64,000 bases of DNA from Mesorhizobium sp. M1E.F.Ca.ET.045.02.1.1 (GTDB lineage Bacteria; Pseudomonadota; Alphaproteobacteria; Rhizobiales; Rhizobiaceae). The position numbers and the translations under genes were made by a program. The stretch lies in NCBI RefSeq assembly GCF_003952485.1, contig NZ_CP034447.1, forward strand, positions 2,804,501 to 2,868,500. The letters run 5' to 3'. The stretch's first letter is position 1. Each line of letters starts with the position of its first letter. Under the pieces are notes generated by a model. The model worked only from the letters and a program-made list of their open reading frames with translations, did not search any database and was not told the origin of the DNA. This document shows positions 2,291 through 40,575 of this stretch, one piece after another.

Positions 2291-2294
<4 letters not shown>

Positions 2295-9967: not shown

Positions 9968-9988
9968 TTTCCAGCCCCTGGTTCTTCT

Positions 9989-10005: not shown

Positions 10006-10202
10006 GATATCCATTTTGCAGCTTATGAGTTCCTGAAGACCGTCCTGGAGGGGATCCAGGCGAGGTTCCTTCATTTTTTCAATTCACTAGCTGGGATATC
10101 GGGCGGCATTTCGGGTCCATATTGTGCGATCTGCGATCGCAACATAGCTGGCGAGTGAAGGAAAGCCAAGTCAGGATTTGAGAATTGGGCCGAAGCCTTA
10201 TC

Positions 10203-10388: not shown

Positions 10389-10422
10389 GTTGGCGCGCTT
10401 TCACCCAAATCTCGAAGGCTTC

Positions 10423-15738: not shown

Positions 15739-15748
15739 CGCCGGTTCC

Positions 15749-16450: not shown

Positions 16451-16490
16451 GGCAAAAACTCCGGTCTCGCGAGCGGTTCCTGGGCGACGG

Positions 16491-17417
16491 TCATTTGGTG
16501 ATCGACAGTTCGCCGGGCGCGCCGGCGAGCGTGCGGCTCGGCGACGAGGTGGCGATCATGATGATGAGGGTGAGGATGTAAGGGGCGGCGTAGAACAGGT
16601 AGTAGCCCTGCGTGACGCCCACCGACTGCAGCGCCGGGCCGAGCGCGCCGGCGCCGCCGAACAAAAGCGCGGCAGCGAAGCAGCCGAGCGGGTTCCAGCG
16701 CGCGAAGATGACCAGCGCCACCGCCATCAGTCCCTGGCCCGACGAGATGCGCTCGGTCCAGCTGCCGGGATAATAGAGCGACAGGTAGGCGCCGCCGATA
16801 CCGGCGAGCGCTCCGCCGGTGCCGGTGGCCAGCAGGCGCACCGCGTTCGGGTCGAGGCCCATGGCGCGAGCTGCATCGGCGCTGTCGCCGACCACGCGCA
16901 CGATCAGGCCGACACGGGTGTTGCGGAACGCCCACCAGAGGAAGATGGCGAGAGCAGCGCCGATCAGGAACAGCACGTTGACGTTGAGCGCCGCCTGCAC
17001 CTGCGGGATGTCGGACCAGGCGCCGAACGGGATCGCCGGCAGATCGGGCGCGGAGGGCTGGATGAAGGGCTTGCCGAAGAAGAAGGCGAGGCCTGTGCCG
17101 AACAGCATCAGGGCGATGCCGATGGCGATGTCGTTGACCTTCGGGAACTTGCAGATCCAGCCATGAAAGAGGCCGAAGCAGAGGCCGGCGGCCGCCGCCG
17201 CCAAAAGGCCGAGCCATGGCGAGCCGGTCATCACCGCCACCGCATAGGCACTCATGGCGCCGAACACCAGCGTGCCTTCGAGGCCGAGATTGATGCGGCC
17301 GGAGCGTTCGGTGATGGCTTCGCCGAGCGAGACGAAGATGAAGGGAGTGGACACGCGGATGGCGCCGCCCAGCATGGCGAGCGGCACCCCCCACAGCCCG
17401 ATATCGGTCGCGTCCAT
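16491..17417 (-). CDS. BMP-type ABC transporter permease, second subunit
   Basis: A 308-residue hydrophobic protein of the BPD_transp_2 family (NupQ/YufQ-like) with about eight membrane segments. [21 protein letters not shown] is the family motif near residue 38. The ATG at 17417 shares one base with the stop of the partner permease; a GTG at 17420 is possible. Together with the 17417-18559 product it forms the membrane channel of the biuret-operon importer. Confidence 0.9.
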
Positions 17418-18559
17418 CACGCGACCCCCTTCAGGAGATCGGGCCTCTGCCAGAGGTCGGGATTAAAGAGCTTGAACCGGCCGTAGAAGGTCTCGCTGAA
17501 CAAGATGACGATGAACAGCATGCCCTGCAGCACCAGCACGGTTGCATCAGGCAGGTCCATTCGGCGCTGAATCAGCCCGCCGGACGCGTCGATGCCGCCA
17601 AGCAGAACGGCGACGGGGATGATGGCAAGCGGATTGTGGCGGGCAAGGAAGGCGACGAGGATGCCGGTATAGCCGTAGCCGGCGGCCAGCGAGCCGTTGG
17701 CGCTGCCCTGCACGGCCGCGACCTCGAGCATGCCGGCAAGTCCTGCGAAGCCGCCCGCCAGCGCCGTGAAGCCGACGATCAGCGGACCGACGGCCAACCC
17801 CTGCACCTGCGCCGCCCTGACATTGCCGCCGGCGATGCGGGCGGCGAAGCCCCAGCGGGTCTTCTCGATCAGCAGCCAGGAGAGCGCGCAGGCAAGGATG
17901 CCGACGACGAGGCCCCAATGCACCTCCATGCCCGGGATGTCGCCGACGCGGTAGAGGTCGGCCAGCGGCTGGGTCGAGGGTTTGTTGAGCGAGGCCGGAT
18001 CGCGCAGCGGCCCTTCCACCAGATGGTTCATCAGGGCAATCGCGATGTAGGCCATCAGCAGGCTGGAGATGGTCTCGTTGACGGCCCGGTAATGGCGCAG
18101 CGCGCCGACGACACCTATCCAGATGCCGCCGGCGGCCGCGCCCCCCACGCCCATGAGGAGGATGACGAGAAAAGACGGCGCGCCGTTCAGCGCCACGCCG
18201 ATAGCGGCTGCGGCGACGCCGCCGAGCACGATCGCGCCCTCGCCGCCGATGACGACCAGGCCGAGGCGCGCCGGTAGAGCCACGCAGAGCGCCGCAAGCA
18301 AGAGCGGCGCTCCGCGCGACAGCGAGTTCTGGATCGAGAACCAGGAACCGAAGCCGCCGCGCCACATCGTCTCGTAGAGCTGGGCCGGCGACTTGCCGAC
18401 AGCCAGGATGAACAGGCTGAACAGCACCATGCCGGCGACCAGCGCCGCGAGTGGAATGACGAAGGCCTCAGCCCGCCTGGCGATCCATTCGAGCGCCGCC
18501 CGATATCCCCTCGCATCGAGGATGGTCCGCACGTCCGGGCCGCTCACGGTGTCCGTCAT
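17417..18559 (-). CDS. BMP-type ABC transporter permease, first subunit
   Basis: A 380-residue permease of the BPD_transp_2 (NupP/YufP-like) type with an N-terminal cytoplasmic extension of about 35 residues before the first membrane helix. GLVVIGGEGAIVLGGVAAAAIG and MAYIAIALMNHLVEGPLRDP are typical of nucleoside-type permeases. ATG at 18559 chosen; a TTG further upstream adds only five residues. It follows the binding-protein gene by 27 bp with no strong hairpin in between. Confidence 0.9.
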   Translation of the reverse strand: MTDTVSGPDVRTILDARGYRAALEWIARRAEAFVIPLAALVAGMVLFSLFILAVGKSPAQLYETMWRGGFGSWFSIQNSLSRGAPLLLAALCVALPARLGLVVIGGEGAIVLGGVAAAAIGVALNGAPSFLVILLMGVGGAAAGGIWIGVVGALRHYRAVNETISSLLMAYIAIALMNHLVEGPLRDPASLNKPSTQPLADLYRVGDIPGMEVHWGLVVGILACALSWLLIEKTRWGFAARIAGGNVRAAQVQGLAVGPLIVGFTALAGGFAGLAGMLEVAAVQGSANGSLAAGYGYTGILVAFLARHNPLAIIPVAVLLGGIDASGGLIQRRMDLPDATVLVLQGMLFIVILFSETFYGRFKLFNPDLWQRPDLLKGVA

Positions 18560-18586
18560 GTCTCCGTTTCCCAAGGCCCGCGCCCC

Positions 18587-19714
18587 TTAGGCCGTCGAGC
18601 CGACGACGCCGTCGACGAGATAGTCCATGCTTTCGAGCTCGATGGCGGTCTCGACGAAGGCTTGGCCTTCGGTAGCGACGACGGCGCCCTTGTTGCTCTT
18701 CAATGGGCCCTTGATGACGGAGAAGCCGCCTTTCATCATTTCGGCCAGCGTGGCGTCGAACTGCTTGCGCGCCGCTTCGCCGACGGCGGGACCGAGCGGG
18801 CTCATCTTGACGAAGCCGTCGGCCAGGCCGCCGCGCGTGAAGTTGGGCAGCGGCTTGCCGGCGATGAGGTCGTCGACGAACATCTTGTAGACCTTGGCCC
18901 AGTTCCACTCCGCGCCGGTCAGGTATTTTTCCGGCGCCAGCGGGCTCTGGTTGGCGTGGTAGCCACAGACGAAGGCGCCGCGGCCGGCGGCCGTCTCGAC
19001 CACCACCTTCGGGCTGTCGACATGGCAGGTGACGACGTCGGCACCTTGGTCGACCAGCGCGTTGGTGGCCTCGGCTTCCTTGACCGCCAGCGACCATTCG
19101 CCGGTGAAGATCACCTGGCAGGTGATCGCCGGATCGACCGAGCGCGCGCCCAGCAGGAAGGAATTGATGTTGAGCAGAACCTGCGGGATCGGCTTGGCGG
19201 CGACGAAACCGAGCTTCTTCGACTTGGTGGCGTGGCCGGCGACGACGCCGTTGAGGTACTGGCCCATGCCGATATAGCCGAAATAGGAACCGGCGTTCAT
19301 CGGGTGCTTGTCCTTGTTCCACATGCCGCCGCAATGGCGAAACTGCACGTCAGGGAACTTCGCGCACATGGCCAGCATATGCGGATCGAAGTAGCCGAAC
19401 GAGGTCGGAAAGATCAGCGAGGCGCCGTCGAGATTGATCATCGATTCCATCGTCTTCTGGACGTCGACCGTTTCGGGAACATTTTCCTCCTCGACGATGG
19501 AAATGCCTTCGATGCCCTTCAGCGACGCAGCCCCTTCGGCATGCGCCTGGTTGTAGCCATAGTCGTCCTTCGGGCCGACATAGATGAAGCCGACGGTAGC
19601 GGCGGCGGCGCGCGCCGCGCGGATCGGAAAGGCTGCCGAGGCAAGGCCCAGCGCCGCTCCGGCGGCGGAGGTCTTGAGCAGATCGCGGCGGCTAAGCATG
19701 AATCTCTCGGTCAT
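18587..19714 (-). CDS. BMP-family substrate-binding protein, Tat-exported
   Basis: A 375-residue periplasmic binding protein of the basic membrane protein (BMP/Med) family. The N-terminus has a twin-arginine signal (SRRDLLKTSAAGAALG, cleavage near AARA), so it is probably exported folded. The sequence VGFIYVGPKDDYGYNQAHAEG is the BMP ligand-binding start. The ATG at 19714 is preceded by GGGGAG. BMP proteins are known mostly for nucleosides, but related rhizobial operons pair them with ureide hydrolases; here biuret or triuret is the likely ligand by context. First gene of the operon. Confidence 0.9.
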   Translation of the reverse strand: MTERFMLSRRDLLKTSAAGAALGLASAAFPIRAARAAAATVGFIYVGPKDDYGYNQAHAEGAASLKGIEGISIVEEENVPETVDVQKTMESMINLDGASLIFPTSFGYFDPHMLAMCAKFPDVQFRHCGGMWNKDKHPMNAGSYFGYIGMGQYLNGVVAGHATKSKKLGFVAAKPIPQVLLNINSFLLGARSVDPAITCQVIFTGEWSLAVKEAEATNALVDQGADVVTCHVDSPKVVVETAAGRGAFVCGYHANQSPLAPEKYLTGAEWNWAKVYKMFVDDLIAGKPLPNFTRGGLADGFVKMSPLGPAVGEAARKQFDATLAEMMKGGFSVIKGPLKSNKGAVVATEGQAFVETAIELESMDYLVDGVVGSTA

Positions 19715-26827: not shown

Positions 26828-28204
26828 ATGCTTGATAAACAGGACTTTTCACCCTCCAGCAGCGCCGATCCGCAAAGCTGGCTGACAACGCATGGGATAA
26901 ACGAGGTCGAATGCCTCGTGCCCGACGTCAACGGCGTGCTGCGCGGCAAGGCCTTGCCGGCGGCCAAGTTCCTCAAGTCGCTCGAGGACCGGGCGCTTTG
27001 CCTGCCGAGCAGTGCCTTCCTGGTCGCCATCGACGGCCGCTATTCCGGCTCCATCGATGAGGGCTTTGCCTATCAGGACCCCGACATGCGCATGGTGCCG
27101 GACCTGTCGACGCTTTGCCATGCGCCGGGCGCCGGCGCCGGCAAGGCCTATGTCTTTGCCGACACATTCCACATGGACGACCGGCCATGGATGGCCTCGC
27201 CGCGCCATGTGCTGCGGGCCGTGCTCGATCTCTACCGTCGGCGCGGCTGGCGCGCGGTGATGGCGCCGGAGCTGGAATTCTATCTCACGGCGCCAAACCC
27301 CGATCCGGACCGGCCGCTGACCGCGCCGGTTGGGCGCAACGGCCGTCCGGAAAACGTGCAGCATCCTTACGACATGCAGGCGCTGGAGGAGTTCGAGCCG
27401 GTTATCCAACGCATCTATGCGCATTCGGCGGCGGCTGGGTTGCCGCTCGACACGCTGATCCATGAATCCGGCACGGCGCAGTTGGAAATCAACTTCCTGC
27501 ATGGCGATCCGCTGGCGCTGGCCGACAAGGCGCTGCTGTTCAAACGTATTGCGCGGCAGGCGGCGCAGGCGAACGGCATGCACGCCACCTTCATGGCGAA
27601 ACCGATCGCGGCGCAGGCCGGCAGCTCGATGCACCTGCATATGTCGATCGTCGACGAGAGCGGCGAGCCCTTGTTCGCCGGCAAAGACGGCGAGGACAGC
27701 GAGATGTTCGCGCACTTCATCGGCGGCCTGCAGAAATACATCCCGGAGGTGATGCCGCTGTTCGCGCCCAACGTGAACTCGTATCGCCGCATCCGGCCCG
27801 GGCACAGCGCGCCGGCCAATATCGAATGGTCGCACGACAACCGTTCCTGCGGCCTGCGCGTGCCGATGGGCGGGCGCGCGGCGCGGCGGGTGGAGAACCG
27901 GCTTCCCGGCGCCGACGCCAATCCGTATCTGGCCATGGCCGGCTCGCTGATCGCCGGCTATCTCGGCATCGAGGAGAAGCTTGCCCGCTCGCCGGAGGCC
28001 TCCGGCAATGCCTATCGCAGCCAGAGCACGCTGCCGAAAACCATGGAGGAAGCGCTCGACCGCTTCGCTGCCTGCGAGCCGGTGCGGGCGCTGCTCGGCG
28101 AGGATTTCTCCCAGACCTATCTGCGCGTGAAGAGCGTCGAGCTCGACCTGTTCCAGACCGTGGTGACGGCGTGGGAACGCGACCATCTGCTGCTCAAGGT
28201 GTGA
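26828..28204 (+). CDS. puuA: Gamma-glutamylputrescine synthetase (glutamine synthetase family)
   Basis: A 458-residue glutamine-synthetase-fold ligase: N-terminal ECLVPDVNGVLRGK, ATP/metal motifs (APELEFYLT, TAQLEINFLHG, SSMHLHMS) and the C-terminal NRSCGLRVPMGG...RVENRLPGADANPY. PuuA attaches glutamate to putrescine, the first step of the Puu pathway. The adjacent FAD oxidase (PuuB type, 2-bp gap) and upstream polyamine importer support that reading. It is a paralogue of the 8612 gene in this window. Confidence 0.87.
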   Translation: MLDKQDFSPSSSADPQSWLTTHGINEVECLVPDVNGVLRGKALPAAKFLKSLEDRALCLPSSAFLVAIDGRYSGSIDEGFAYQDPDMRMVPDLSTLCHAPGAGAGKAYVFADTFHMDDRPWMASPRHVLRAVLDLYRRRGWRAVMAPELEFYLTAPNPDPDRPLTAPVGRNGRPENVQHPYDMQALEEFEPVIQRIYAHSAAAGLPLDTLIHESGTAQLEINFLHGDPLALADKALLFKRIARQAAQANGMHATFMAKPIAAQAGSSMHLHMSIVDESGEPLFAGKDGEDSEMFAHFIGGLQKYIPEVMPLFAPNVNSYRRIRPGHSAPANIEWSHDNRSCGLRVPMGGRAARRVENRLPGADANPYLAMAGSLIAGYLGIEEKLARSPEASGNAYRSQSTLPKTMEEALDRFAACEPVRALLGEDFSQTYLRVKSVELDLFQTVVTAWERDHLLLKV

Positions 28205-28206
28205 CT

Positions 28207-29508
28207 ATGGCTTCCAGTTCGACGGGTTTCAATTCCGGTCTCGATATCGGCAAATCCTACTATGTCGCCACCGCCAATCCGGCGCCGGACCATCCGGCGC
28301 TCGCCAGCGATGTCGAAGCTGACCTGGTGGTCGTCGGCGGCGGCTGCACAGGTTTGTCGGCGGCGCTTCATGCCGCCGAACGCGGCCTGAAAGTGGTGCT
28401 GCTCGAAGGCGGCAAGATCGGCTGGGGCGCATCAGGGCGCAATGGCGGCCAGATGATCCCCGGCCTTCGCAAGGGCGCCAAGGGGTTGGTCAAGGCGTTC
28501 GGACCGGAACGGGCGAAGGCGCTGTTCGACCTCGCCTTCGAGGCGCGGGGTCTGGTGCTCGACATCATCGAGCGCCACGGCATCGACTGCGATCTTCGCC
28601 TGACCGGTCATCTGGTCGGCGCGGTCAACGGCTCGGACATGCGAGACTTCGAGGAGGAGGCCGAGTGCCTCGCCAAGGTGATGAACTTTCCGCATGTCGA
28701 GATCCTGTCGGCGGCGGAGGCGCGGCGAATGGTCGACACGCCCTATCACGGCGCATCCTTCGAAAAGCTCGGCGGCCACATGCACCCGCTGAACTACACG
28801 CTGGGCCTCGCGCGCGCCGCTTCCGCCGCAGGTGTTGCCATCCACGAGAACTCGGTTGCGGTGCGCCTCGAGCGCGAGCCGTCCATCCGCGTGTTCACCG
28901 ACAAGGGCTCGGTCCGCGCCCGGCATGTCGTGCTGGCAGGCGATGCGCTGCTCGAGGGACTGGAGCCGCGCGTCAACAGCCGCATCATGCCGATCGGCAA
29001 CTACATCGTCGCCACCGAACCACTGGAGGGCGAACGCAATGTCATCCCGTCCAATGTCGCGGTTTCCGACACGCTCTTCGTGGTCAACTACTACCGCATG
29101 TCGGCGGACGGCCGCCTGCTGTTCGGCGGCGGCGAGCGCTATACGCCGTCGCCGCCGGCCGATATCGCCGGCTTCGTTCGGCCGCATATGGAAAAGACCT
29201 TTCCACAGCTCAAGGGCTGCCGGATCGATCACGCCTGGGGCGGCCTGGTGTCGGTGACGACATCGCGCCTGCCGCATGTCGGGCACTATGGCGAGGTCTA
29301 TTTCGCGCATGGCTATTCCGGCAAGGGCGTCATCCTGTCGACGCTGTCGGGCAAGCTGCTCGCGGAAGCGATCACGGGCGACGCCTCGCGGCTCGACCTG
29401 TTCTCGACGCTGACGCCACTGCCGTTCCCAGGCGGCACCGCGTTGCGCGGGCCGCTCTATGTGCTGGGCATGTTGTGGTACGCCATGCGCGACCGGCTGA
29501 GGCATTGA
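28207..29508 (+). CDS. puuB: FAD-dependent oxidoreductase, gamma-glutamylputrescine oxidase type
   Basis: A 433-residue DAO-family flavoprotein with the dinucleotide motif VVVGGGCTGLSAA near residue 41, followed by GASGRNGGQ, the PuuB-type signature, and a C-terminal YFAHGYSGKGVILSTLSGKL flavin-contact motif. PuuB oxidises gamma-glutamylputrescine to the aldehyde with release of ammonia and hydrogen peroxide. ATG at 28207 lies 2 bp after the puuA stop, so it is co-transcribed. No PuuC or PuuD gene is present here; those steps must be encoded elsewhere or replaced. Confidence 0.88.
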   Translation: MASSSTGFNSGLDIGKSYYVATANPAPDHPALASDVEADLVVVGGGCTGLSAALHAAERGLKVVLLEGGKIGWGASGRNGGQMIPGLRKGAKGLVKAFGPERAKALFDLAFEARGLVLDIIERHGIDCDLRLTGHLVGAVNGSDMRDFEEEAECLAKVMNFPHVEILSAAEARRMVDTPYHGASFEKLGGHMHPLNYTLGLARAASAAGVAIHENSVAVRLEREPSIRVFTDKGSVRARHVVLAGDALLEGLEPRVNSRIMPIGNYIVATEPLEGERNVIPSNVAVSDTLFVVNYYRMSADGRLLFGGGERYTPSPPADIAGFVRPHMEKTFPQLKGCRIDHAWGGLVSVTTSRLPHVGHYGEVYFAHGYSGKGVILSTLSGKLLAEAITGDASRLDLFSTLTPLPFPGGTALRGPLYVLGMLWYAMRDRLRH

Positions 29509-30437: not shown

Positions 30438-31517
30438 TCAAGCCGGAAACAGGAATGCCGAAGCGGGATCGAAGAAGATCTGCCGGCCCGAAGCGGCATC
30501 GGCGCTGTCCGGCTCCGCGGCGTCCGAGGTCGGCCTGACGTCGATCTCGTCGCCCGACGCGGTGCGCGCCACGACGCGGCGGCGGTCACCGAAGAAGGCG
30601 GCGTCGACGATCTCGACGGCGAGCGACGCGTTTCCCGGCACTCCCGCCAGGCGGAAGGCTTCCGGCCGCACCATCAGCCTGGCCTTCTGACCGCGGTCGA
30701 GCTTGTGGGTCGCTTTCACACCCTTGACGATCGAGCCATCGGACAGCCGCACCACGGCAGCGCCATTCTCGGTTTCGAGATGCTCGACGGCCAAGAAATT
30801 GGAATTGCCGATGAAGCCGGCGACGAATTCGTTCGCGGGCCTCAGATAGAGGTCCTCGCCGGTGCCGATCTGCGCGATGCGTCCGCTCCTGAACAGGGCG
30901 ATCCGATCGGAAAGATGCAGAGCCTCCTCCTGGTCGTGCGTGACATAGAGGATGGTGACGCCTGTCTCGTGGTGGATGCGGCGGATCTCGGCCTGGATTT
31001 CCTGGCGCAGCTTCTTGTCGAGCGCCGACAGCGGCTCGTCCATCAGAAGGATCGGCGGATCGTAGGCGAGCGCGCGGGCAAGCGCCACGCGCTGCTGCTG
31101 GCCACCCGACAGCGCGCCCGGATAGCGGTCGGCGAAACTGTCGAGGCGCACCAGCGCGAGCATGTCGGCGACCTTGCGCTTCACCTCGCTGTCCGGCCTG
31201 CGGCGCACGCGCAGCGGAAACGCCACATTCTCGGCAACGCTCAGATGCGGGAACAGCGTGTAGCGCTGGAAGACCATGCCGATGTTGCGTTTGTGGGAAG
31301 GCACTGCGAGCAGTGACTTGTCTTCAAGCAGCACGTCGCCGGAGGTCGGGTCCTGGAAACCGGCGATCGCATAGAGCGTCGTCGACTTGCCGGAACCCGA
31401 GGGTCCCAGGAACGTCAGGAATTCGCCCTTGGGCACGTCGATGGTGACGTCATGGACGGCGACGAAGCCGCCGAACGTCTTTCTCACCGCGCGTATGGAG
31501 AGGAATGGCCGGGTCAT
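30438..31517 (-). CDS. Spermidine/putrescine-type ABC transporter ATP-binding protein
   Basis: A 359-residue ABC ATPase: Walker A GPSGSGKSTT, VFQRYTLFPHLSV Q-loop, signature LSGGQQQRVALARALA, Walker B ILLMDEPLSALD, THDQEEALHLSD, and a C-terminal TOBE domain. ATG at 31517 overlaps the permease stop as ATGA. It is the last gene of a long minus-strand operon that starts near 39193, so it presumably energises uptake of the compound degraded by the enzymes encoded upstream. Confidence 0.9.
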   Translation of the reverse strand: MTRPFLSIRAVRKTFGGFVAVHDVTIDVPKGEFLTFLGPSGSGKSTTLYAIAGFQDPTSGDVLLEDKSLLAVPSHKRNIGMVFQRYTLFPHLSVAENVAFPLRVRRRPDSEVKRKVADMLALVRLDSFADRYPGALSGGQQQRVALARALAYDPPILLMDEPLSALDKKLRQEIQAEIRRIHHETGVTILYVTHDQEEALHLSDRIALFRSGRIAQIGTGEDLYLRPANEFVAGFIGNSNFLAVEHLETENGAAVVRLSDGSIVKGVKATHKLDRGQKARLMVRPEAFRLAGVPGNASLAVEIVDAAFFGDRRRVVARTASGDEIDVRPTSDAAEPDSADAASGRQIFFDPASAFLFPA

Positions 31518-32314
31518 CTGGACAGTTTTCTGCGAAGGAGTGCGGTCACGATCATCAGGCATAAGGTGAGGCCGACGAGCAGGCTGGAGGCGGCGGCGAC
31601 GACCGGGCTGAGGTCGGCGCGCAGGCTGCACCATATCTTGACCGGCAAGGTGTGCAAGGTGGGGCTTGCCATGAAGATCGCCACCACCACCTCGTCCCAC
31701 GAGGCGAGGAAGGAAAAGATCGCGGCCGAGAAGATGCCGATGCGGATCGAGGGCAGCGTGATCCTCAGCCTCGCATGCAGCGGGCTGGCGCCGCAGACGA
31801 TCGCCGCGTCCTCGATGGATTTGTCGAAGCCTTCGAGCGCGGTTGCGATCGGAATGATGGCGAAGGGCAGCGCCAGGATGGTGTGGGCGATGACAAAGCC
31901 GATCGTGGTGCCGGCAAGGCCGATGCGCAGGAAGAAGGCGTAGATGGCGATGGCGAAGACCACGACCGGCAGCACCATCGGTGTCAGCAGCAATCCGCGC
32001 AGCAATTGCCGCCCGGGAAACTCGCCCCTGACCAGGCTGAAGGATGCAAGCAAGCCGATCAGCACCGACAAGATTGCGGCCATCGCAGCGATGCGCGCGC
32101 TGGTCAGCGCCGCGTCGATCCAGGCCGGGTCGGCCAGCAATTCCTGGTACCATTTCAGCGTCCAGCCGGGCGGCGGGAAGGCCAGCCAGCGCGACGAGCC
32201 GAACGACAAAAGGACGATGAAGACCACCGGCAGCAGGAGGAAAGCGGCGACCAGCGCGGTGAAGCCGGCAAGTGCTGCGCGCAGCCATCCAAGCCGGTCG
32301 TAATCGAGCAGCAT
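31514..32314 (-). CDS. ABC transporter permease (PotC-like)
   Basis: A 266-residue permease with six membrane helices and the EAA-type loop IEDAAIVCGASPLHARLRITLPSIR. ATG at 32314 follows the stop of the partner permease by one base (TGAGATG), indicating coupled translation. Longer starts upstream would overlap the partner gene deeply and are not family-like. Confidence 0.9.
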   Translation of the reverse strand: MLLDYDRLGWLRAALAGFTALVAAFLLLPVVFIVLLSFGSSRWLAFPPPGWTLKWYQELLADPAWIDAALTSARIAAMAAILSVLIGLLASFSLVRGEFPGRQLLRGLLLTPMVLPVVVFAIAIYAFFLRIGLAGTTIGFVIAHTILALPFAIIPIATALEGFDKSIEDAAIVCGASPLHARLRITLPSIRIGIFSAAIFSFLASWDEVVVAIFMASPTLHTLPVKIWCSLRADLSPVVAAASSLLVGLTLCLMIVTALLRRKLSR

Positions 32315-32315
32315 C

Positions 32316-33176
32316 TCAGAGCCCTCCGGCCAGACGTCGGGCGCCGACGAGGCGAAGCTGGATCGCATAGAGCGCCATGGTGACGACAAGCAGCACGAAG
32401 GCGGTCGCGCTGCCCAGCCCCCAGTTGAGCAGCGACTGCACCGTCTGGGCGATCATCTCGGCGAGCATCATGTTCGACGTGCCGCCGAGCAGCGCAGGCG
32501 TCACGAAATAGCCGAGCGACATGACGAAGACCATCAGCCCGCCGGCGGCGATGCCGGGCAGCGACAGCGGCAGCAGGATGCGGCGGAAGGCCTGGAGAGG
32601 GCTTGCGCCGCAAAGGGCTGCGGCGCGCAGCGTCATCGGGTCGATGGCGCGCAGCGTGCCGACCAGCGGCAGGATCATGAAGGGCAGCATGATGTAGACC
32701 ATGCCGATGGTGACGCCGGTCAGATTGTTGATGAGCGGCAACGGCTCATGGATGATGCCGAGGCTCATCAAGGCACGGTTGATCACGCCGGTACGCTGCA
32801 GCAGCACCATCCAGGCATAGGTTCGGGTCAGCAGATTGGTCCACATCGAGAGGATGATGATGCCGAAGACGACCGAGCCGAGCGCCGGCGGCATGATCGC
32901 CAGCATCCATGCGACAGGAAACGCCACGACGATAGTAACGATCGTAACGACGGCGGCGACGAGAAAAGTGTTGAGGAACACCCGTACATAGGTGCCGCTG
33001 CCGAAAAGGGCGGCGTAGTTCTGCAGCCCGGGCTCAGGCTCAGTGACGCTGCGCAGCAGCAAGGCGACCACCGGCACGATGAAGAACAGGCCGACCAGCG
33101 TCAGGGCCGGCAAGGCGCCGCCGCTGCCGGCCGGCAGGCCGGCAAAGGATTGGCGTCTGAAAGCAGTTCCCGTCAT
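32316..33176 (-). CDS. ABC transporter permease (PotB-like)
   Basis: A 286-residue permease, six helices, with coupling loop LRAAALCGASPLQAFRRILLPLSLPG. ATG at 33176 (MTGTAFRRQ) chosen; the ribosome site is weak. A strong hairpin separates it from the binding-protein gene upstream. Confidence 0.9.
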   Translation of the reverse strand: MTGTAFRRQSFAGLPAGSGGALPALTLVGLFFIVPVVALLLRSVTEPEPGLQNYAALFGSGTYVRVFLNTFLVAAVVTIVTIVVAFPVAWMLAIMPPALGSVVFGIIILSMWTNLLTRTYAWMVLLQRTGVINRALMSLGIIHEPLPLINNLTGVTIGMVYIMLPFMILPLVGTLRAIDPMTLRAAALCGASPLQAFRRILLPLSLPGIAAGGLMVFVMSLGYFVTPALLGGTSNMMLAEMIAQTVQSLLNWGLGSATAFVLLVVTMALYAIQLRLVGARRLAGGL

Positions 33177-33195
33177 GGAAACGTCCCGTCTTTCA

Positions 33196-33222
33196 AGCGG
33201 GGCGCTGTTGCCGCGCCCCGCT
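33196..33222 (-). promoter_or_regulatory. Perfect hairpin between binding-protein and permease genes
   Basis: AGCGGGGCGC (33196-33205) and GCGCCCCGCT (33213-33222) enclose a 7-nt loop, 13 bp past the stop of the binding-protein gene on the minus strand. No T-run follows in that direction. It matches the hairpins found after three other binding-protein genes in this window. Confidence 0.6.
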
Positions 33223-33235
33223 CTTGTCATGGCGG

Positions 33236-34240
33236 CTACTTGGTCTGCCAGGCGTACCAGCGCGTGGCGATCTCGTCGCGATGCTCGGCCCAGTAGTTCA
33301 TGTCGAGATTGATCTGGCCGTCGACATGGGCGTCGGGCAGGCCCTTGACCACGTCCGCGGCCATCTCGGCCTTGGCCTTGGTGTTGATCGGCGCGTAGCC
33401 GCTCGCTTCGGCGAACTTCGCCTGGCCGGTCGGGCTGGTGGCGGCGGCGAGGAACTTCATGGCGCTGTCCTTGTTCTTGGCGCCCTTCGGGACGACGAGA
33501 ACGTCAGCGGCGGTGAGGTTCTGGTTCCAGGAGACGCCGACATCGGCGCCGTCCTTCTCCAGCGCGAAGACACGTCCGTTCCAGAGCTGGCCGAAGGCAG
33601 CCTCGCCCGAAGCGATGAGCTGCTGCGACTCGGCGCCACCACCCCACCAGACGATGTCCGACTTGATGGTGTCGAGCTTCTTGAAGGCGCGGTCGAGGTC
33701 GAGCGGGTAGAGCTTGTCGGCGGGCACGCCGTCGGCGAGCAGCGCGATCTCGATCACGCCCGGCGCCGACCATTTGTAGAAGGTTCGTTTGCCGGGAAAC
33801 TTCTTGGTGTCGAACATGTCGGCCCAGCCCGTCGGTTCGCCCGAAACGGTGCCCTTGTTCCAGGCGAGAACGAAGGAATAGTAGAAGCTGCCGACGGCGT
33901 GCTCGTTGCTGAAGCGCGGGTCGAGATCGGCCTTCGGCACGGCGGCGAAGTCGATCGGCTCGAGCAATCCGTCCTTCGCCGCCTTGATGGCGAAGTCCAT
34001 CTCGACGTCGACGACGTCCCAGGTGACGTTCTTGGCGTCGACCATGGCCTTCAGCTTGCCGTAGTCGGTCGGGCCGTCCTGCAGCACCTTGATGCCGGAC
34101 GAGGCCGCGAACGGCTCCGCCCAGGACTTGGTCTGCGCCTCCTGCGTGGTGCCGCCCCAACTGGTGAACACCATTTCGTCGGCCTTGGCGGCGGTTGCCG
34201 CCAGCAGTCCGGCGAGAACGCCGGCTAAGATCAGTTTCAT
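33236..34240 (-). CDS. ABC transporter extracellular solute-binding protein (PotD-type)
   Basis: A 334-residue periplasmic protein with a classical Sec signal peptide (about 20 residues, cleavage at AKADE). EMVFTSWGGTTQEAQTKSWAEPF is the start typical of putrescine-type binding proteins whose ligands are often not polyamines. ATG at 34240 is preceded by AGAGGAG. The gene sits between a catabolic gene block (aldehyde dehydrogenase, flavin monooxygenase) and its permeases, so it likely binds the substrate or precursor of that pathway. Confidence 0.9.
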   Translation of the reverse strand: MKLILAGVLAGLLAATAAKADEMVFTSWGGTTQEAQTKSWAEPFAASSGIKVLQDGPTDYGKLKAMVDAKNVTWDVVDVEMDFAIKAAKDGLLEPIDFAAVPKADLDPRFSNEHAVGSFYYSFVLAWNKGTVSGEPTGWADMFDTKKFPGKRTFYKWSAPGVIEIALLADGVPADKLYPLDLDRAFKKLDTIKSDIVWWGGGAESQQLIASGEAAFGQLWNGRVFALEKDGADVGVSWNQNLTAADVLVVPKGAKNKDSAMKFLAAATSPTGQAKFAEASGYAPINTKAKAEMAADVVKGLPDAHVDGQINLDMNYWAEHRDEIATRWYAWQTK

Positions 34241-34306
34241 GTCATTCTCCTCTGATTTCTCTGTTCCGTTTCTTGTTCTTGTCAGTGCATCCTCGTCATG
34301 CCGTTC

Positions 34307-35779
34307 TCAGCGCATGACGAAGGGATCAGGGATCGGCTCGTCCGAGGTCTTGATCCAGACCGATTTCGAGCGCGTGTAATCGCGGATGGCGTCCAGCCCG
34401 CCTTCGCGGCCGAGGCCCGACAGGCCGTAGCCGCCGAAGGGCACGAGCGGCGAGACCGCCCGGTACGTGTTAACCCAGACGACGCCGGCATGGATGTCGC
34501 GCGCCATGCGGTGCGCCTTGCCGAGATTGGAGGTGAAGACGCCGGAGGCGAGGCCGAAGGGCGTGTCATTGGCGAGCGCGAGCGCCTCGGCCTCGGTGTC
34601 GAAGGCAAGCACGCTGAGCACCGGGCCGAACAGTTCCTCGCGCACGCAGGGCAGGTTGATGTCGCCGGCATCGATGATGGTCGGCGCGTAGTAGAAGCCC
34701 GCGCCGATGTCCGGGCGCTTGCCTCCGGTCACGAGCGTGCCGCCCGCGGCGAGGCTCTCGGCCACGACCTTCTCGATCCAGTCGCGCTGGCGCAGCGTGG
34801 CTAAAGGCCCCATTTCGGTGGCCGGATCCTGTGGGTCGCCGATGCGGATCGCTTCGGCTTTTTGCTTCAGCCGACCGAGGAACTCCTGCCTCACCGAACG
34901 CTCGATGAGCAGCCGCGAGCCGGCGACGCAGCTCTGCCCGGTCGCGGCGAAGATACCGGCGACGACCGCATTGGCGGCGCTGTCGAGATCGGCGTCGGCG
35001 AAGACGACGACGGGGCTTTTGCCGCCAAGCTCAAGCGTCGTAAAGGCGAGGTTCTCCGCCGTGTTCCTGACGATGGCGCGCGCCGTCGACGGGCCGCCGG
35101 TGAAGGCGACGCGCGAGACCAGCGGATGGCTGGTCAGGCGCCGCCCGCATTCCTGGCCGAAGCCGGTGAGGATGTTGACAGCGCCGGCTGGAAAGCCGGC
35201 TTCGCTGACCAACTCGGCAAAGGCGAGCAGCGGCGCCGGGCCGTCCTCGGAGGCTTTGAGCACCACCGTGCAGCCGGCGGCCAGCGCCGGACCGAGCTTG
35301 ACCGCCGAGAGGAAGAGCTGCGAGTTCCACGGCACCACCGCGGCAACGACGCCGATCGGCTCGCGGCGGATGGTGACGTCGAGATCCGCCTTGTCGATCG
35401 GCACATGCGCGCCTTCGTGCTTGTCGGCGAGCCCACCATAGTAGCGGTAGTAGTCGCCGACATAAGCGATCTGGGCGCGGGTCTCGCGGATGATCTTGCC
35501 GGTGTCGCGCGTCTCCAGCTCGGCCAGGCGCCCGGCATTGGCGGCGACGAGATCGCCGAGTTTCACCAGCAGCTTGCCACGCGCGGTTGCCGTCATCGAC
35601 GCCCAAGGTCCGGAGCGCAGCGCGCGGTGCGCCGCCTCGACGGCGCGGTCGACGTCGACTTCGGTCGCCGCCGGCATCTTCGCCCAAGGCGCGCCGGTCG
35701 ACGGATCGATGCTGTCGAAGGTCGCGGACGGCTCGTCGAAGCGGCCGTCGATGAAGTTCCTGAAAAGAGCGTCGGTCAT
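34307..35779 (-). CDS. NAD(P)-dependent aldehyde dehydrogenase
   Basis: A 490-residue ALDH superfamily enzyme with complete catalytic residues: Asn152 (PWNSQ), Glu250 (LELGGK) and Cys284 (GQSCVAGSR). The N-terminal FIDGRFDEPS is typical of substrate-broad aldehyde dehydrogenases. The gene lies 13 bp from the LLM monooxygenase gene in the same operon, so it probably oxidises an aldehyde released by that monooxygenase. The exact aldehyde is unknown. Confidence 0.92.
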   Translation of the reverse strand: MTDALFRNFIDGRFDEPSATFDSIDPSTGAPWAKMPAATEVDVDRAVEAAHRALRSGPWASMTATARGKLLVKLGDLVAANAGRLAELETRDTGKIIRETRAQIAYVGDYYRYYGGLADKHEGAHVPIDKADLDVTIRREPIGVVAAVVPWNSQLFLSAVKLGPALAAGCTVVLKASEDGPAPLLAFAELVSEAGFPAGAVNILTGFGQECGRRLTSHPLVSRVAFTGGPSTARAIVRNTAENLAFTTLELGGKSPVVVFADADLDSAANAVVAGIFAATGQSCVAGSRLLIERSVRQEFLGRLKQKAEAIRIGDPQDPATEMGPLATLRQRDWIEKVVAESLAAGGTLVTGGKRPDIGAGFYYAPTIIDAGDINLPCVREELFGPVLSVLAFDTEAEALALANDTPFGLASGVFTSNLGKAHRMARDIHAGVVWVNTYRAVSPLVPFGGYGLSGLGREGGLDAIRDYTRSKSVWIKTSDEPIPDPFVMR

Positions 35780-35791
35780 GGAGGCTCGCGA

Positions 35792-36829
35792 TCAGATAAA
35801 GGCCGGCATCACCCGGTCGATGAACAGTTGCAGAGATTTCTTCTTGCGCTCGTGCGAAAGGCCGCTGTCGATCCAGATCGAGTACTGGTCGTAGCCGAGC
35901 GTCTCGTAGGCCTTCAGCCGGCCGATCACCTCATCCGCCTCGCCGATCACCAGGTTCTGGCGCATCTTGTCCGGCGCGTATTGCGGCATGGCGGCAATCT
36001 CGTCGGCGGTCAGCGGCTCCAATATGCCCTGATGCACCGGCTTCTTGTTCTGGAACCAGGCGCCGAACTGACAGTAGAAGGTCGATAGATCCTGGCTGAG
36101 CCGATCGGCGTCGGCCGCATTCTCGGCGACGAATGTGTGCATCAAAAGCATGATCTCCGGCCGTTCGATGTCCGGATGCGCGGCGCAGGCGGCGTTGAAG
36201 CGCTGCATCAGGCTTGCGACCTCGTCGTCGCCGGAGGCCAGCGGCGTCACCTGCACCTTGCATCTGTTGGCGACGGCAAAGTCGTGCGAGTTCGGGTCGC
36301 GGGCAGCCACCCAGATCGGTGGGTAGGGTTTCTGCAAGGGCTTGGGCGAGGAGGTGGTCGGCGGGAACTGCCAGAACTCGCCGGCGTGCTCGTAGTCGCC
36401 GTCCCAGAGGCCGCGGATTGCGGGTATGATCTCGCGCATGCGCTGGCCGGCGCCCCAGGCATCGAGCCCCGGGAAGACGCGCTGATATTCGTAGCTGTAA
36501 GCGCCGCGCGCGATGCCGACATCCAACCTGCCGCCGGTGACGAGGTCGGTCATGGCCGCCTCGCCCGCAAGCTTGATGGGGTGCCAGAAGGGCGCGATGA
36601 TGGTTCCGGTGCCGAGGCGGATGCGGTTCGTTTTGGCCGCCAGATAGGCGATGTTGATGAACGGATTGGGCGAGATGGTGAATTCCATCCCGTGATGCTC
36701 GCCGATCCAGGCCGTCTCGAAACCGGCCTCTTCGGCGAGCAGCACCAGCTCTCCCAGCTCGTCCAGCAGCTCCGAATGCGGCTTGGCGAGATCCGAGCGT
36801 TCCATATGCACGAAGAGCGAGAACTTCAT
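35792..36829 (-). CDS. LLM-class flavin-dependent monooxygenase (luciferase-like)
   Basis: A 345-residue bacterial-luciferase-family protein. KFSLFVHMERSD, WIGEHHGMEFTISPNP, RLGTGTIIAPFWHP and GRLDVGIARGAYSYEY form the TIM-barrel flavin site. Such enzymes use reduced FMN from a partner reductase to oxygenate amines, thioethers or heterocycles. The next gene encodes a flavin reductase domain, so the two form a two-component monooxygenase. ATG at 36829 overlaps the stop of that gene (ATGA). It resembles RutA in role, not in clear sequence identity. Confidence 0.9.
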   Translation of the reverse strand: MKFSLFVHMERSDLAKPHSELLDELGELVLLAEEAGFETAWIGEHHGMEFTISPNPFINIAYLAAKTNRIRLGTGTIIAPFWHPIKLAGEAAMTDLVTGGRLDVGIARGAYSYEYQRVFPGLDAWGAGQRMREIIPAIRGLWDGDYEHAGEFWQFPPTTSSPKPLQKPYPPIWVAARDPNSHDFAVANRCKVQVTPLASGDDEVASLMQRFNAACAAHPDIERPEIMLLMHTFVAENAADADRLSQDLSTFYCQFGAWFQNKKPVHQGILEPLTADEIAAMPQYAPDKMRQNLVIGEADEVIGRLKAYETLGYDQYSIWIDSGLSHERKKKSLQLFIDRVMPAFI

Positions 36830-38613
36830 CCCTGGTCACCTGGATTGAGCGAAGCGACTTCGGCCCGAGCGAGCGGCCGCACTTCGCCTTCGAGTTCGTT
36901 GCCGACATAGACGCCGAATGCATCTTCAGTGCATTCGCGCACATAACGGGCCAGCATCGAGCGAATCGCCGGGTCGGCGATCTTCAACCCGTCGATCGCG
37001 TCGATGTCGATCAGCCGAATGCCGCGATCGCTCGACGCCGGCACATCGAACGTGCCACGATAGTAGACATGGGTGCGCGAAGCGTTGCCTGCATCGTCCC
37101 AGACGGCGTACAGGAAGCCGAGATGGGCCTCGATGGCCTTTGCGGCAAGAAGTCCGTTGAGGCTCTTGCCGTCGCTTGCCGAGCCAAGGCCCCGGCCACG
37201 CGGCAGGTCAAGGAAGCCATCCGCCGTTTCGAGAAACAGGATGCGGCCGCCATTCTCGAGGATGGCGCCGACATCGGTGCCGGGCTGGGCGGCGGCGAGC
37301 GCCTCCTGGCTGAGGCCGGGCGTGATGTAGGCGCCGCGGCAATAGCCGAGGGGCTGCGCGGAATTGTGCTGGAAATCGCGGACACGGCCGATGAGGATCG
37401 AATGATCCCCCGCGTCGACCAGCCGCTCCATGTCACAGTCGAAGCAGGCGACCGAGCCGTCCAGAATGGGGCTGCCGGTCTGTCCCGGGCGCCAGTCGAC
37501 CGAGGCGAACTTGTCCGGCGCTTTCGAGGCGAAGATGCCGGAGGCCGCTTTCTGGCCCTCGTTCAAGATATTGATGGCGAAGCTCTTCGAGGTCGCGAAC
37601 ACCGGGTGCCCCAGCGCCTTATGGGCGATGCAGACGAGCACCAGCGGCGGATCGAGCGATACCGAGGTGAAGGAGTTGGCGGTGAAGCCGCGCGGCTCGC
37701 CTTCCAGACCGATGGTGGTGACGATGGTGACGCCGGTCAGGAAGGAGCCGAGCGCGCGCCGGAACTCGCCACTGTCGAAATCGGTGACCGCCTCCGCGAC
37801 TTCGCGTTCCTGAAGGAAGTCGGCGATGTGGCGTGTGGTCAGATCAGGCGCCGCCACCGCCATCATATGCCTTTCACCAGGCAGCACGGTGCAGCGGCCA
37901 TGCGGCGCGAGCCTGGCCATGGCGGCCGACATCGCCGGCGAGGAGTTTTTGTCTTCCGAGCCGGTGATGAACAGGGCCGGCACGGCCAGCGTCGGCAGGC
38001 GCTCGGCGTGGTCGGCATCGGCACGGGCGAATAGGCGGTAGGTGCGGGCATAGCCTTCGGGGTCGACCTCGCCCAGCGCCGCCGCCGTCTTCTCGGCCGC
38101 CGCGGTGAGTCCGGCCGGAACCGGATCGCCAAACCAGCGCGCGATGGTCTGCGCAGCGCCTGCCGCGTCGCCGCGACCGGTGAGCGCGGCGGCGCGCTCG
38201 CGAACGGCATCGGCGAGTTCAGGCGGCCGGCGGAACACGGCGTTGAGCGAGACGATGCGGCCGACGCGCTCCGGCGCGAGCAGAGCAAGCTCCTGCGCGA
38301 CGAGCGCGCCCATGGAGTGGCCGACGACCGACACGCTTTTTAAGCCGAGATGATCGAGCAGCCGGATCGCCTGCCCAGCATAGTCGGCCAGTTCCGGTGT
38401 CTGCGGCGGCAACGGCGAGCGGCCATGACCAAGCATATCGATGGCGATGACGTCCCAGCGATCCGCCATCCGCTCGATCTGCGGCCGCCAGATCGCCGCG
38501 TTCATGCCGACGCCGTGAATGAAGAGCACCGGCGCGCCCGATCCGGCGCGGATGAAGCTGGTGCCGTCGGGCGCGGTACCCTCAGTCCACTCAGCTGCGA
38601 CGGCGTCAGCCAT
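36826..38613 (-). CDS. Alpha/beta hydrolase fused to a flavin reductase with extra C-terminal domain
   Basis: A 595-residue fusion. Residues 1-270 are an alpha/beta hydrolase: oxyanion-type FIHGVGMN, nucleophile Ser100 in VGHSMGA, acid near GSEDKNSS, His249 in GERHMMA. Residues about 281-430 are a flavin reductase (RRALGSFLTGVTIVTT...GFTANSFTSVSLDPPLVLVCI). Residues 431-595 are an extra domain, Nudix-like at best. The two main activities correspond to RutD and RutF of uracil breakdown, here in one chain beside a LLM monooxygenase. ATG at 38613 overlaps the DUF1185 gene end by eight bases. The fused form could channel reduced flavin and hydrolyse the oxygenated product. Confidence 0.88.
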   Translation of the reverse strand: MADAVAAEWTEGTAPDGTSFIRAGSGAPVLFIHGVGMNAAIWRPQIERMADRWDVIAIDMLGHGRSPLPPQTPELADYAGQAIRLLDHLGLKSVSVVGHSMGALVAQELALLAPERVGRIVSLNAVFRRPPELADAVRERAAALTGRGDAAGAAQTIARWFGDPVPAGLTAAAEKTAAALGEVDPEGYARTYRLFARADADHAERLPTLAVPALFITGSEDKNSSPAMSAAMARLAPHGRCTVLPGERHMMAVAAPDLTTRHIADFLQEREVAEAVTDFDSGEFRRALGSFLTGVTIVTTIGLEGEPRGFTANSFTSVSLDPPLVLVCIAHKALGHPVFATSKSFAINILNEGQKAASGIFASKAPDKFASVDWRPGQTGSPILDGSVACFDCDMERLVDAGDHSILIGRVRDFQHNSAQPLGYCRGAYITPGLSQEALAAAQPGTDVGAILENGGRILFLETADGFLDLPRGRGLGSASDGKSLNGLLAAKAIEAHLGFLYAVWDDAGNASRTHVYYRGTFDVPASSDRGIRLIDIDAIDGLKIADPAIRSMLARYVRECTEDAFGVYVGNELEGEVRPLARAEVASLNPGDQG

Positions 38614-39193
38614 GCAGGTCGCCCACTTCCTTGAGATCCTGATAGCGATCGCCGATGCGGTGATGCGGACGGCCGCCGATGGACGCGCCAAGCGCTACCA
38701 CCAGCTCGTCCGGCGCCGGCGCGTCGCCTATCTGGAAATGCACGGTCAGATAGTGCGAGCGCCGGCCTTCGTCATTCTTGTCCATCAGCGGGATCATGAT
38801 CGGCGTGTTCGGCCCGCCGCGCAGATTGGTGAAGGCAAGATAGGTCTTGGCGCCGACGGTGCGGCGATAGTGGTTGCCGAAATGCAGCGTGTGGATCAGG
38901 GCCGAGGCGTGCTCGATCTCACCCGACGTGCCGCAGATGGCGGCCTTGCCGTAGCCCTCGATCGCCTCGCCCGAGCCGGCGACGGCAAGGATCTCACGGG
39001 TCAGGGTCTCTCCCAGCACCGGCGCACAGGCGCGGATTTCGGGCGAAAGATCCTCGGTGAAGCCGCGTCCTGCCCAGGGGTTCGTCAGCACTGCGGCGAC
39101 GCCGATCAGGCGCAGCGGCCTGGGCGCCGCCTTGCCGCCTTCGATCAGCGTGTTTTCGGTGTAGGTGACGATCTTGCGAATGGCCGGCTGCAT
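38606..39193 (-). CDS. DUF1185 / AA_synth family protein
   Basis: A 195-residue protein of the AA_synth (PF06684) family, seen from IRKIVTYTENTLIEGGK, NPWAGRG, GKAAICGTSGEIEHASALIH and the C-terminal GGRPHHRIGDRY. The family has been structurally likened to chorismate-mutase-type trimers; no reaction is established. It is the first gene of the operon, directly downstream of the GntR operator, and its stop overlaps the hydrolase-reductase start. Its constant company with LLM enzymes suggests a ring-opening or amide-hydrolysing step; that is inference. Confidence 0.85.
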   Translation of the reverse strand: MQPAIRKIVTYTENTLIEGGKAAPRPLRLIGVAAVLTNPWAGRGFTEDLSPEIRACAPVLGETLTREILAVAGSGEAIEGYGKAAICGTSGEIEHASALIHTLHFGNHYRRTVGAKTYLAFTNLRGGPNTPIMIPLMDKNDEGRRSHYLTVHFQIGDAPAPDELVVALGASIGGRPHHRIGDRYQDLKEVGDLHG

Positions 39194-39242
39194 GGAAACC
39201 TCTGTCGAGCGGCGCTGCGGAATAGCGTCACCTTCTGTGTCT

Positions 39243-39256
39243 TATGGTATACCATA
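39243..39256. promoter_or_regulatory. GntR-type operator in the divergent region
   Basis: TATGGTATACCATA is a perfect 14-bp palindrome with the GGTATACC core typical of FadR/VanR-type GntR operators. It lies 50 bp upstream of the DUF1185 gene and 71 bp upstream of the GntR gene, so one repressor could control both directions. Confidence 0.7.
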
Positions 39257-39326
39257 CTATGGAGCACCAAATACCTTGTCAACCGGCCATGGAATCTGTT
39301 TTTGTGGCGACGCAGGGAGCAAGCAC

Positions 39327-40001
39327 ATGCAGGACGACACCCTTCGCATCGATCGCAGCGCCAAGACCTTGAGAACATTGGCTCTCGAGCGCATGCGCGA
39401 GGCCATAATGGATTTTCATTTCCAGCCCGGCGAAAGGCTGGTCGAGCGGCCGCTTTGCGACCAGCTCGGCGTCAGCCGCTCAGTCGTGCGCGAGGTCTTG
39501 CGGCAATTGGAGGCCGAGGGACTCGTGCAGATGATCCCCGGACACGGGCCGGCGGTGGCGCGGCCGGATCTCGGCCGCACTGACGAGATCTACGAGCTCA
39601 GGGCTCTTCTCGAAGGGATCGCGGCGCGCGCCTGCGCGCTGTCGGCAACCAATGGGCAACTAGCGATACTGGAGCATGCTCTCAGCGAGCTCTTCGAAGC
39701 CTGGGCCTCGGGCAAGCCGCCGGCGGTGATGCGCGCGACGACGAAGTTCTACGAAGCGCTGTTTGAAGCCGCGGACAAGCGCGTCGCCTGGGAGATCGTG
39801 AGCGGGCTCAACGTGCGCATCAACCAGCTGCGCTCGATGACGATCGCCTCGGCGAACCGGCGCGAGCCGGCGATCGCCGAAATGAACGCGATCATGAATG
39901 CGATCAGGGCGCGCAAGCCCGAGGAGGCCGAAGCGGCGGCGCGGCGGCATGTCGAGTCCGCGTGGAAGATCGCCCGCACGGCGCTGCAGCCGAATGGTTA
40001 G
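39327..40001 (+). CDS. GntR-family (FCD) transcriptional regulator
   Basis: A 224-residue regulator with an N-terminal winged helix (about residues 15-80: RPLCDQLGVSRSVVREVLRQLEAEGLV) and an FCD domain (about 90-215). ATG at 39327 has GGGAG seven bases upstream; longer frames upstream would run through the operator. Divergent from the LLM operon, so it is likely the local repressor, with release by the substrate or an intermediate. Its stop overlaps the stop of the convergent gene at 39998. Confidence 0.9.
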   Translation: MQDDTLRIDRSAKTLRTLALERMREAIMDFHFQPGERLVERPLCDQLGVSRSVVREVLRQLEAEGLVQMIPGHGPAVARPDLGRTDEIYELRALLEGIAARACALSATNGQLAILEHALSELFEAWASGKPPAVMRATTKFYEALFEAADKRVAWEIVSGLNVRINQLRSMTIASANRREPAIAEMNAIMNAIRARKPEEAEAAARRHVESAWKIARTALQPNG

Positions 40002-40504
40002 ACTGTGTCCCGGTTGGTCAGCGCGATGTGGCAGCAACCGGAGCCGTGGCCTGGCGTCCAGGTGACGTTGGCGAAGCGCACGCCGGTCGCTTCGAACAGG
40101 CCGCGGTCGAAGGCGCCGGCGATGCGGCAGAGCGTGGCGAGCTTTTCCTCGCCGACACCGGCCTCGACCCAGGCATCTTTCAGCGGGCAGCGCTTCACCT
40201 TGAAGGCGATGTGGTCCGGTCCGTGCTCGACATGGGTCGGGTACATGCGACCGCCATCCGGGCTTACGGCGAGGAACGCCTCGCCGATCGCCAGCGCGTC
40301 GTTGGGGCCGAAGCCGGCGAAGGCCGTCGCAGCGACCTCCCGGCCGCGCTTTTCGATGGTGCGGATCATGACCGCCTCGGCCTTCTCAGCGCCTAGCTCG
40401 GTGGTCAGCTCATCCAGGAAGAGGCGATAGAGATCGGCCCGGTTGCGGAAGGCGGAATCGAGCTCACGCGACAGTTTTTCGGCTCTGGTTGCGGGGTCGG
40501 TCAT
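39998..40504 (-). CDS. L-2-amino-thiazoline-4-carboxylate hydrolase-like protein
   Basis: A 168-residue protein resembling the ATC_hydrolase family (PF14196): RELDSAFRNRADLYRLFLDEL, IEKRGREVAATAFA, KRCPLKDAWVEAG and a C-terminal GHGSGCCHIAL with a Cys-Cys pair. Family members open the thiazoline ring of L-2-amino-thiazoline-4-carboxylate on the way to cysteine, but many homologues have unknown substrates. ATG at 40504 chosen. It ends a peptide-type ABC operon, so the transporter may bring in its substrate. Confidence 0.75.
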   Translation of the reverse strand: MTDPATRAEKLSRELDSAFRNRADLYRLFLDELTTELGAEKAEAVMIRTIEKRGREVAATAFAGFGPNDALAIGEAFLAVSPDGGRMYPTHVEHGPDHIAFKVKRCPLKDAWVEAGVGEEKLATLCRIAGAFDRGLFEATGVRFANVTWTPGHGSGCCHIALTNRDTV

Positions 40505-40526
40505 GATGCGTCCTGATTTACTGCTT

Positions 40527-40575
40527 GACCATGATCTTGTCCGCAAACCGGGTCCCACTTTGCGGGATCATGGTC
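40527..40575. repeat. Short palindromic repeat, family E, overlapping a stop codon
   Basis: GACCATGATC (40527-40536) and GATCATGGTC (40566-40575) are exact reverse complements around a centre with CAAACCGGGTCCCACTTTG. This resembles a palindromic repeat common in Rhizobiales. The TGA stop of the ATPase gene (40568-40570) lies inside its right arm. Confidence 0.7.

Follow-up and report, generated by a model that had tools for sequence, protein, structure and literature searches.

The tgn-type operon and its counterparts

The closest described system to the locus treated here is the trigonelline (N-methylnicotinate; tgn) pathway of Acinetobacter, in which, according to what Perchat et al. reportedly found in 2018, a two-component flavin oxygenase cleaves the C5-C6 bond of trigonelline and the lactone is then oxidised; a hydrolase is said to free CO2, methylamine, formate and succinic semialdehyde, and a succinic-semialdehyde dehydrogenase (SSADH) together with a conserved hypothetical protein to finish the route. 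In a 64,000-nucleotide stretch of Mesorhizobium sp. M1E.F.Ca.ET.045.02.1.1 (hereinafter the window; positions 2804501-2868500 of a 7,348,390-base single-contig genome), we found an operon with a closely corresponding gene set: on the minus strand it runs from a DUF1185 gene through a hydrolase-flavin-reductase fusion, a luciferase-like (LLM) monooxygenase and an aldehyde dehydrogenase to a four-gene ATP-binding cassette (ABC) importer, with a GntR regulator encoded divergently. Gene set, order, regulator, candidate operator and kinship together indicate that this operon most likely is a tgn-type set for the import and breakdown of trigonelline. Passages of the published accounts name TgnA/TgnB as the oxygenase system that opens the ring (PMC8269262) and report that TgnF, a DUF1185 member, stimulates the SSADH TgnE; for another DUF1185 protein, HcdD, a similar effect was sought and none seen (PMC7913881). 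The initial annotation, made from the sequence alone, knew of no described pathway with these genes and saw in DUF1185 a family lacking a known reaction; the first statement gives way to the tgn pathway of Acinetobacter and the second to the reported role of TgnF.

Pfam and open reading frame (ORF) analysis bore out the tight minus-strand operon with all its parts and a divergent GntR. The first gene (38606..39193) encodes a TgnF-like DUF1185/AA_synth protein (PF06684, E=4.7e-67) and overlaps by 8 nt a single ORF (36826..38613) in which Pfam models recognize an alpha/beta hydrolase (TgnD-like) followed by a flavin reductase (TgnA-like). This in turn overlaps by 4 nt the gene for the TgnB-like LLM flavin-dependent oxygenase (35792..36829; PF00296, Bac_luciferase), the predicted ring-opening enzyme; 12 nt further on lies that for the TgnC-like aldehyde dehydrogenase (34307..35779; PF00171, Aldedh). 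The importer genes, again on the minus strand, begin after a gap of 66 nt and code for a substrate-binding protein (33236..34240; PF13416, SBP_bac_8), a PotB-like permease 1 (32316..33230; PF00528) 5 nt beyond it, a PotC-like permease 2 (31514..32314; PF00528) after a further 1 nt, and a PotA-like ATPase (30438..31517; PF00005 and TOBE_2) overlapping permease 2 by 4 nt; the matches to the PotB, PotC and potA models are below cut-off. On the plus strand, 133 bp from the DUF1185 gene, the TgnR-like regulator (39327..40001) combines GntR and FCD domains; its ORF opens at 39165, and the start at 39327, chosen from homologues, is the most likely one, the starts of the fusion, permease 2 and the ATPase having likewise been set by homology. 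The initial annotation was right to propose a two-component flavin monooxygenase route served by a dedicated importer and a GntR, and the N-heterocyclic substrate that it suggested is probably right.

Relatives of the window LLM at E<=1e-45 occur in 40 of 348 genomes of the Psychrobacter-type family, 24 of them (60-65% identity) in genus g310 and 16 in a Psychrobacter-type genus. We take g310 to be Acinetobacter by inference from one locus that matched five plasmid-collection records, all Acinetobacter, in a near-BLAST search. In all five of the 24 g310 loci that were compared, a GntR gene stands divergent to DUF1185, hydrolase, reductase, LLM and aldehyde dehydrogenase genes in an order colinear with the window. 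The same order is seen in Acinetobacter sp. PK01 (NZ_CP094644), where RefSeq labels three of the genes tgnC, tgnB (oxygenase) and tgnA (reductase), in keeping with the first two steps of the tgn route, and an SSADH gene is nearby. The PK01 cluster also adjoins sarcosine-oxidase-like genes, folD and purU, which would fit methylamine and formate as products. Six Acinetobacter loci share with the window the five catabolic functions in kind and order, the divergent GntR and the operator, with identities of 64-66% for the aldehyde dehydrogenase (including the annotated tgnC), 60-65% for the LLM (including the annotated tgnB), 60-66% for DUF1185 and 40-41% for the GntR counterparts in the same position. 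In contrast, the Acinetobacter hydrolase (36-38%) and reductase (38-40%) are encoded by separate genes, a cytosine-permease-type transporter takes the place of the ABC importer, and SSADH is part of the cluster, with its own operator copy.

The counterpart on pSymA of S. meliloti shares the gene order and also the kind of ABC importer (GntR 50%, DUF1185 70-71%, LLM 62%, aldehyde dehydrogenase 70-71%, substrate-binding protein 65%), but has separate hydrolase (39%) and reductase (38-39%) genes, additional NIPSNAP and SSADH genes, and an operator one mismatch off. In the strain-1021 pSymA record this cluster is the only match to the window LLM at E<=1e-20, and in strain ml21 nodL and noeA are less than 5 kb away from it. 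According to a passage of PMC4207669, 10 mM trigonelline as the only carbon source supports growth of wild-type S. meliloti but not of a delta-pSymA strain; the cluster presumably corresponds to the trigonelline region described in earlier literature. Its reductase (L007, 9069-10004) differs, by our own count, at four places over 311 residues from the protein of PDB entry 3rh7, deposited as 'Hypothetical oxidoreductase', which thereby gains a likely function. Closer still, M. ciceri WSM1271 carries the whole operon, including fusion and importer, at 84-94% identity (GntR 90%), but on plasmid pMESCI01 (MESCI_RS31230-31270) and with generic annotation only.

A tree of 45 LLM proteins, in which the long branches of L035 and L121 (our own locus handles) make details unsure, places 29 rows in a group A (support 100/99) and sets 9 rows apart as group B. 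Within group A, clade A1 (10 rows, 100/98) comprises, among others, the proteins of the window, M. ciceri, Azospirillum and Labrys, and clade A2 (19 rows, 100/99) comprises S. meliloti, the Acinetobacter tgnB and the roseobacter and Psychrobacter types. The nearest relatives are up to 94% identical to the window LLM. Of 127 residues invariant in A2 (18 rows, L121 left out), the window LLM keeps 117, and the group-B LLM of the same genome 84. In a sample of 398 genomes from the phylum, 23 have relatives at E<=1e-45.

By analogy with the described pathway, the GntR would repress transcription from the candidate operator ATGGTATACCAT until an inducer is bound, and the PotABCD-type importer would take up trigonelline. 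The reductase half of the fusion is predicted to supply reduced flavin to the LLM oxygenase, which would open the pyridinium ring; the aldehyde dehydrogenase would convert the 5-hydroxybutyrolactone product to (N-methylformamido)methylene-succinate, and from this the hydrolase half of the fusion may release CO2, methylamine, formate and succinic semialdehyde. The last of these would be turned into succinate by a dehydrogenase encoded outside the operon, with the aid of DUF1185, and methylamine would be assimilated by GmaS-type enzymes. The genome has two type-III glutamine synthetases scoring over cut-off, the family to which GmaS belongs, and these could take up the methylamine. These assignments provide a likely substrate and a testable map for an operon type present in 81 of 146 Mesorhizobium genomes. 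As a passage of PMC12489286 has it, trigonelline is found in Medicago nodules and is thought to be plant-derived there, which makes the operon relevant to the nutrition that rhizobia draw from their hosts. Among open-literature papers on trigonelline and Mesorhizobium, none treats this operon by title; of those on the Tgn proteins, PMC7913881 gives the names of the pathway proteins, and PMC11354265 contains a single mention of a trigonelline monooxygenase.

The candidate operator

The palindrome ATGGTATACCAT (39244..39255) lies between the GntR and DUF1185 genes, where it is the sole exact copy in the 7.35 Mb genome; three further sites match it with one mismatch, and a reversed control pattern returned none. 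Among 20,000 mononucleotide shuffles of the intergenic region, only 3 carried it at <=1 mismatch. Its exact 10-base core, TGGTATACCA, recurs in 13 of 15 chosen tgn-type GntR/DUF1185 intergenic regions, the other two (L131 and L137, the latter from S. meliloti) being one mismatch off the 12-mer. When 23 group-A stretches, including pSymA of two strains, were scanned whole, 22 had the 12-mer at <=1 mismatch and one (L124) had two-mismatch sites only; 78 of 80 Pseudomonas loci likewise have it at <=1 mismatch. No site within two mismatches was found in the group-B clusters L005 (of the same genome) and L010 or at the genome's third DUF1185 place, L004. In the four Acinetobacter loci in which SSADH was placed (L131, L133, L135 and L136), a second copy with 0, 2, 2 and 1 mismatches, respectively, lies no more than about 100 bp upstream of that gene, and the importer of L121 has an exact copy ahead of it.

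From this distribution we infer that the GntR would bind the shared palindrome. According to a passage of PMC4494728, operators of FadR-subfamily GntR regulators consist of TKGT/ACMA boxes with a GT-AC spacing of 3, or of 2 in several groups; because such palindromes are usual for FadR-type GntRs, the sharing of the operator across phyla is support for, not proof of, one regulon. Two further loci, L037 (Pseudomonas) and L123 (Pseudomonas-like), combine a group-A LLM and its flavin reductase with a cytosine-permease-type transporter, a RibBA-like gene for riboflavin synthesis and the operator at 0-1 mismatch; DUF1185, the hydrolase and the aldehyde dehydrogenase were not found in these two stretches.

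The hydrolase-reductase fusion and the substrate

The special feature of this operon is modest: it most likely encodes a known pathway, with the hydrolase and the oxygenase's reductase as one polypeptide. The hydrolase occupies residues ~1-270 and the flavin reductase residues ~280-595, and all 10 fusions that were aligned have S100, D221 and H249, the probable catalytic triad of a protein of this family, without variation. By our own tallies, which apply to all genus counts given here, 79 of the 146 genus genomes (the window's own included) have a stop-free match that spans residues 10-583 of 594 or more, two of them having two such matches, which makes 81 in all; hence, the fusion is no sequencing accident. 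Both halves were matched in 81 genus genomes, the same 81 that have an A1 oxygenase, with the match running across a contig end in G1128 and the frame broken in G1105. Outside the family, an A1 genome (G091, locus L154) also has the fusion in one frame. By comparison, the reductase part alone is matched in the two A2 genomes of the genus and in three that have only group B, and annotation or ORFs show the hydrolase and reductase as separate in the A2 loci L007, L008, L011, L119, L131, L133, L135 and L136; the Leisingera record lists no gene under the hydrolase stretch.

Searches of structures with the fusion recovered PDB 3kxp and 3rh7, the former (E=3e-20) being the third-best match of the hydrolase half, slightly below the chains of the esterase 4uhc/4uhh. 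The 3kxp protein is the E2AMS hydrolase of vitamin B6 breakdown, which acts on an analogous aminomethylene-succinate; it is sequence kin of the hydrolase half, but is unfused and belongs to another pathway. The C-terminus of the reductase part (36826-37326), ~165 residues without a Pfam match, is largely shared with 3rh7. A predicted structure of the fusion, built with 10 alignment rows, had a mean pLDDT of 54 and was too poor for use. The fusion raises the question of why the oxygenase's reductase should be joined to the hydrolase of a later step.

Several observations weigh against trigonelline as the substrate. The window LLM falls in A1, which is sister to the A2 clade holding S. meliloti and Acinetobacter; ten positions separate the two clades, including residue 42 beside the EHH motif; and identity between the fusion halves and their separately encoded A2 counterparts is no more than 32-43%. 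The link between pSymA and trigonelline concerns the whole plasmid, not single genes, and pSymA of strain ml21 has a second LLM match (31% identity). The product name 'trigonelline monooxygenase' is non-discriminating, for it marks both group A (6 of 120 matches listed, all JGI) and the divergent group B (5 JGI and 1 NCBI of 120 matches listed), and JGI and NCBI product names were accordingly dropped as evidence. There is also no SSADH within the operon to correspond to TgnE in the cluster, although six SSADHs over the curated cut-off are encoded elsewhere in the genome, one of them in the stretch of the group-B cluster. In Acinetobacter, S. meliloti, Psychrobacter and two Rhizobium-type loci an SSADH gene adjoins the tgn-type cluster, but none was found in the Ruegeria and Leisingera cluster stretches; hence, it is not a constant neighbour of such clusters. 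The initial annotation had stated that its reading would be refuted by orthologous operons for which a substrate was known; such operons are largely what we recovered, with the reserve that the window oxygenase belongs to the sister clade.

That sister-clade position makes a close trigonelline analogue possible as substrate, and the same chemistry might act on another N-alkyl pyridinium, such as homarine or N-methylnicotinamide, with the fused-enzyme clade A1 having shifted its substrate. The separation of the clades, their ten class-specific positions and the weak conservation of hydrolase and reductase relative to A2 speak for such a shift; yet the operator and the kind of importer are common to A1 and A2, and a passage of PMC8269262 argues on steric grounds that homarine is an unlikely substrate for the TgnA/TgnB machinery. 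Further, LLM matches at E<=1e-60 in 94 of the 146 genus genomes include A1 in 81 (counting G1158, a partial match assigned to A1 by its fusion) and A2 in 2, with both in 0; and no genome among the 71 with matches, of 394 in the family, has two group-A matches (best five candidates per genome scored). Such non-overlap is expected of mutual stand-ins, although proof would take larger numbers. Group B (41-43% identity), by comparison, is present in 35 of the 146 genus genomes, 24 of which also have A1; small as the numbers are, this pattern fits a common function for A1 and A2 and a different one for group B. On balance, we consider a substrate shift unlikely. A related proposal, that A1 is a functionally distinct tgn branch in which the fusion of the step-1 reductase to the step-3 hydrolase forms a complex with the LLM and channels the reactive ring-opened intermediate, the substrate being another legume-supplied N-alkyl pyridinium, appears distinctly unlikely to us.

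A Rut-like pyrimidine or cyclic-amide pathway without known equivalent would account for the presence of an LLM, a reductase and a RutD-like hydrolase, and the initial annotation was correct that the logic is Rut-like with different proteins. The likeness of the LLM, flavin reductase and alpha/beta hydrolase logic holds in outline only, however, as the proteins are only remotely related: RutA chains are remote matches (E about 1e-5), RutD scores 85 bits against a cut-off of 238.5 and RutF 97.6 against 254.75, and the RutA, RutB, RutC and RutE models are absent from the best 25 model matches per protein (for the LLM, the best 25 of 30). To our knowledge, the Rut system has no such aldehyde dehydrogenase, DUF1185 or GntR, whereas tgn clusters correspond to the operon gene for gene. 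We therefore rejected this alternative on the family scores and regard it as highly improbable.

Neighbouring genes and further loci in the genome

Directly past the GntR gene, and with its stop overlapping the GntR end, lies a gene (39998-40558) for a PF14196 protein of the L-2-amino-thiazoline-4-carboxylic acid hydrolase family, which adjoins ORFs that by eye resemble ABC-importer genes. Beyond the other end of the operon, a glutamine-synthetase-like gene (27062-28189) below the TIGR03105 cut-off is followed by an ORF (27826-29508) that by eye resembles an FAD oxidoreductase; the two are perhaps a polyamine-use cluster beside the operon.

Elsewhere in the genome, L005 (genome 680501-700499) contains at ~407-18869 a second, parallel ring-opening set that is divergent from the window operon (LLM 42%, aldehyde dehydrogenase 46%, flavin reductase 41%, DUF1185 52% identity). 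It comprises ABC importer parts, a hydrolase, an LLM, an aldehyde dehydrogenase, a flavin reductase, a PucR-type regulator and a divergently encoded DUF1185, with SSADH further on, and this group-B ring-opening cluster may be the more open question. At L004 (genome 1518001-1537999; 9340-17275), a third DUF1185 gene has as neighbours genes for a MarR regulator, an isochorismatase-fold protein and subunits of molybdopterin/xanthine-dehydrogenase type, perhaps another N-heterocycle route.

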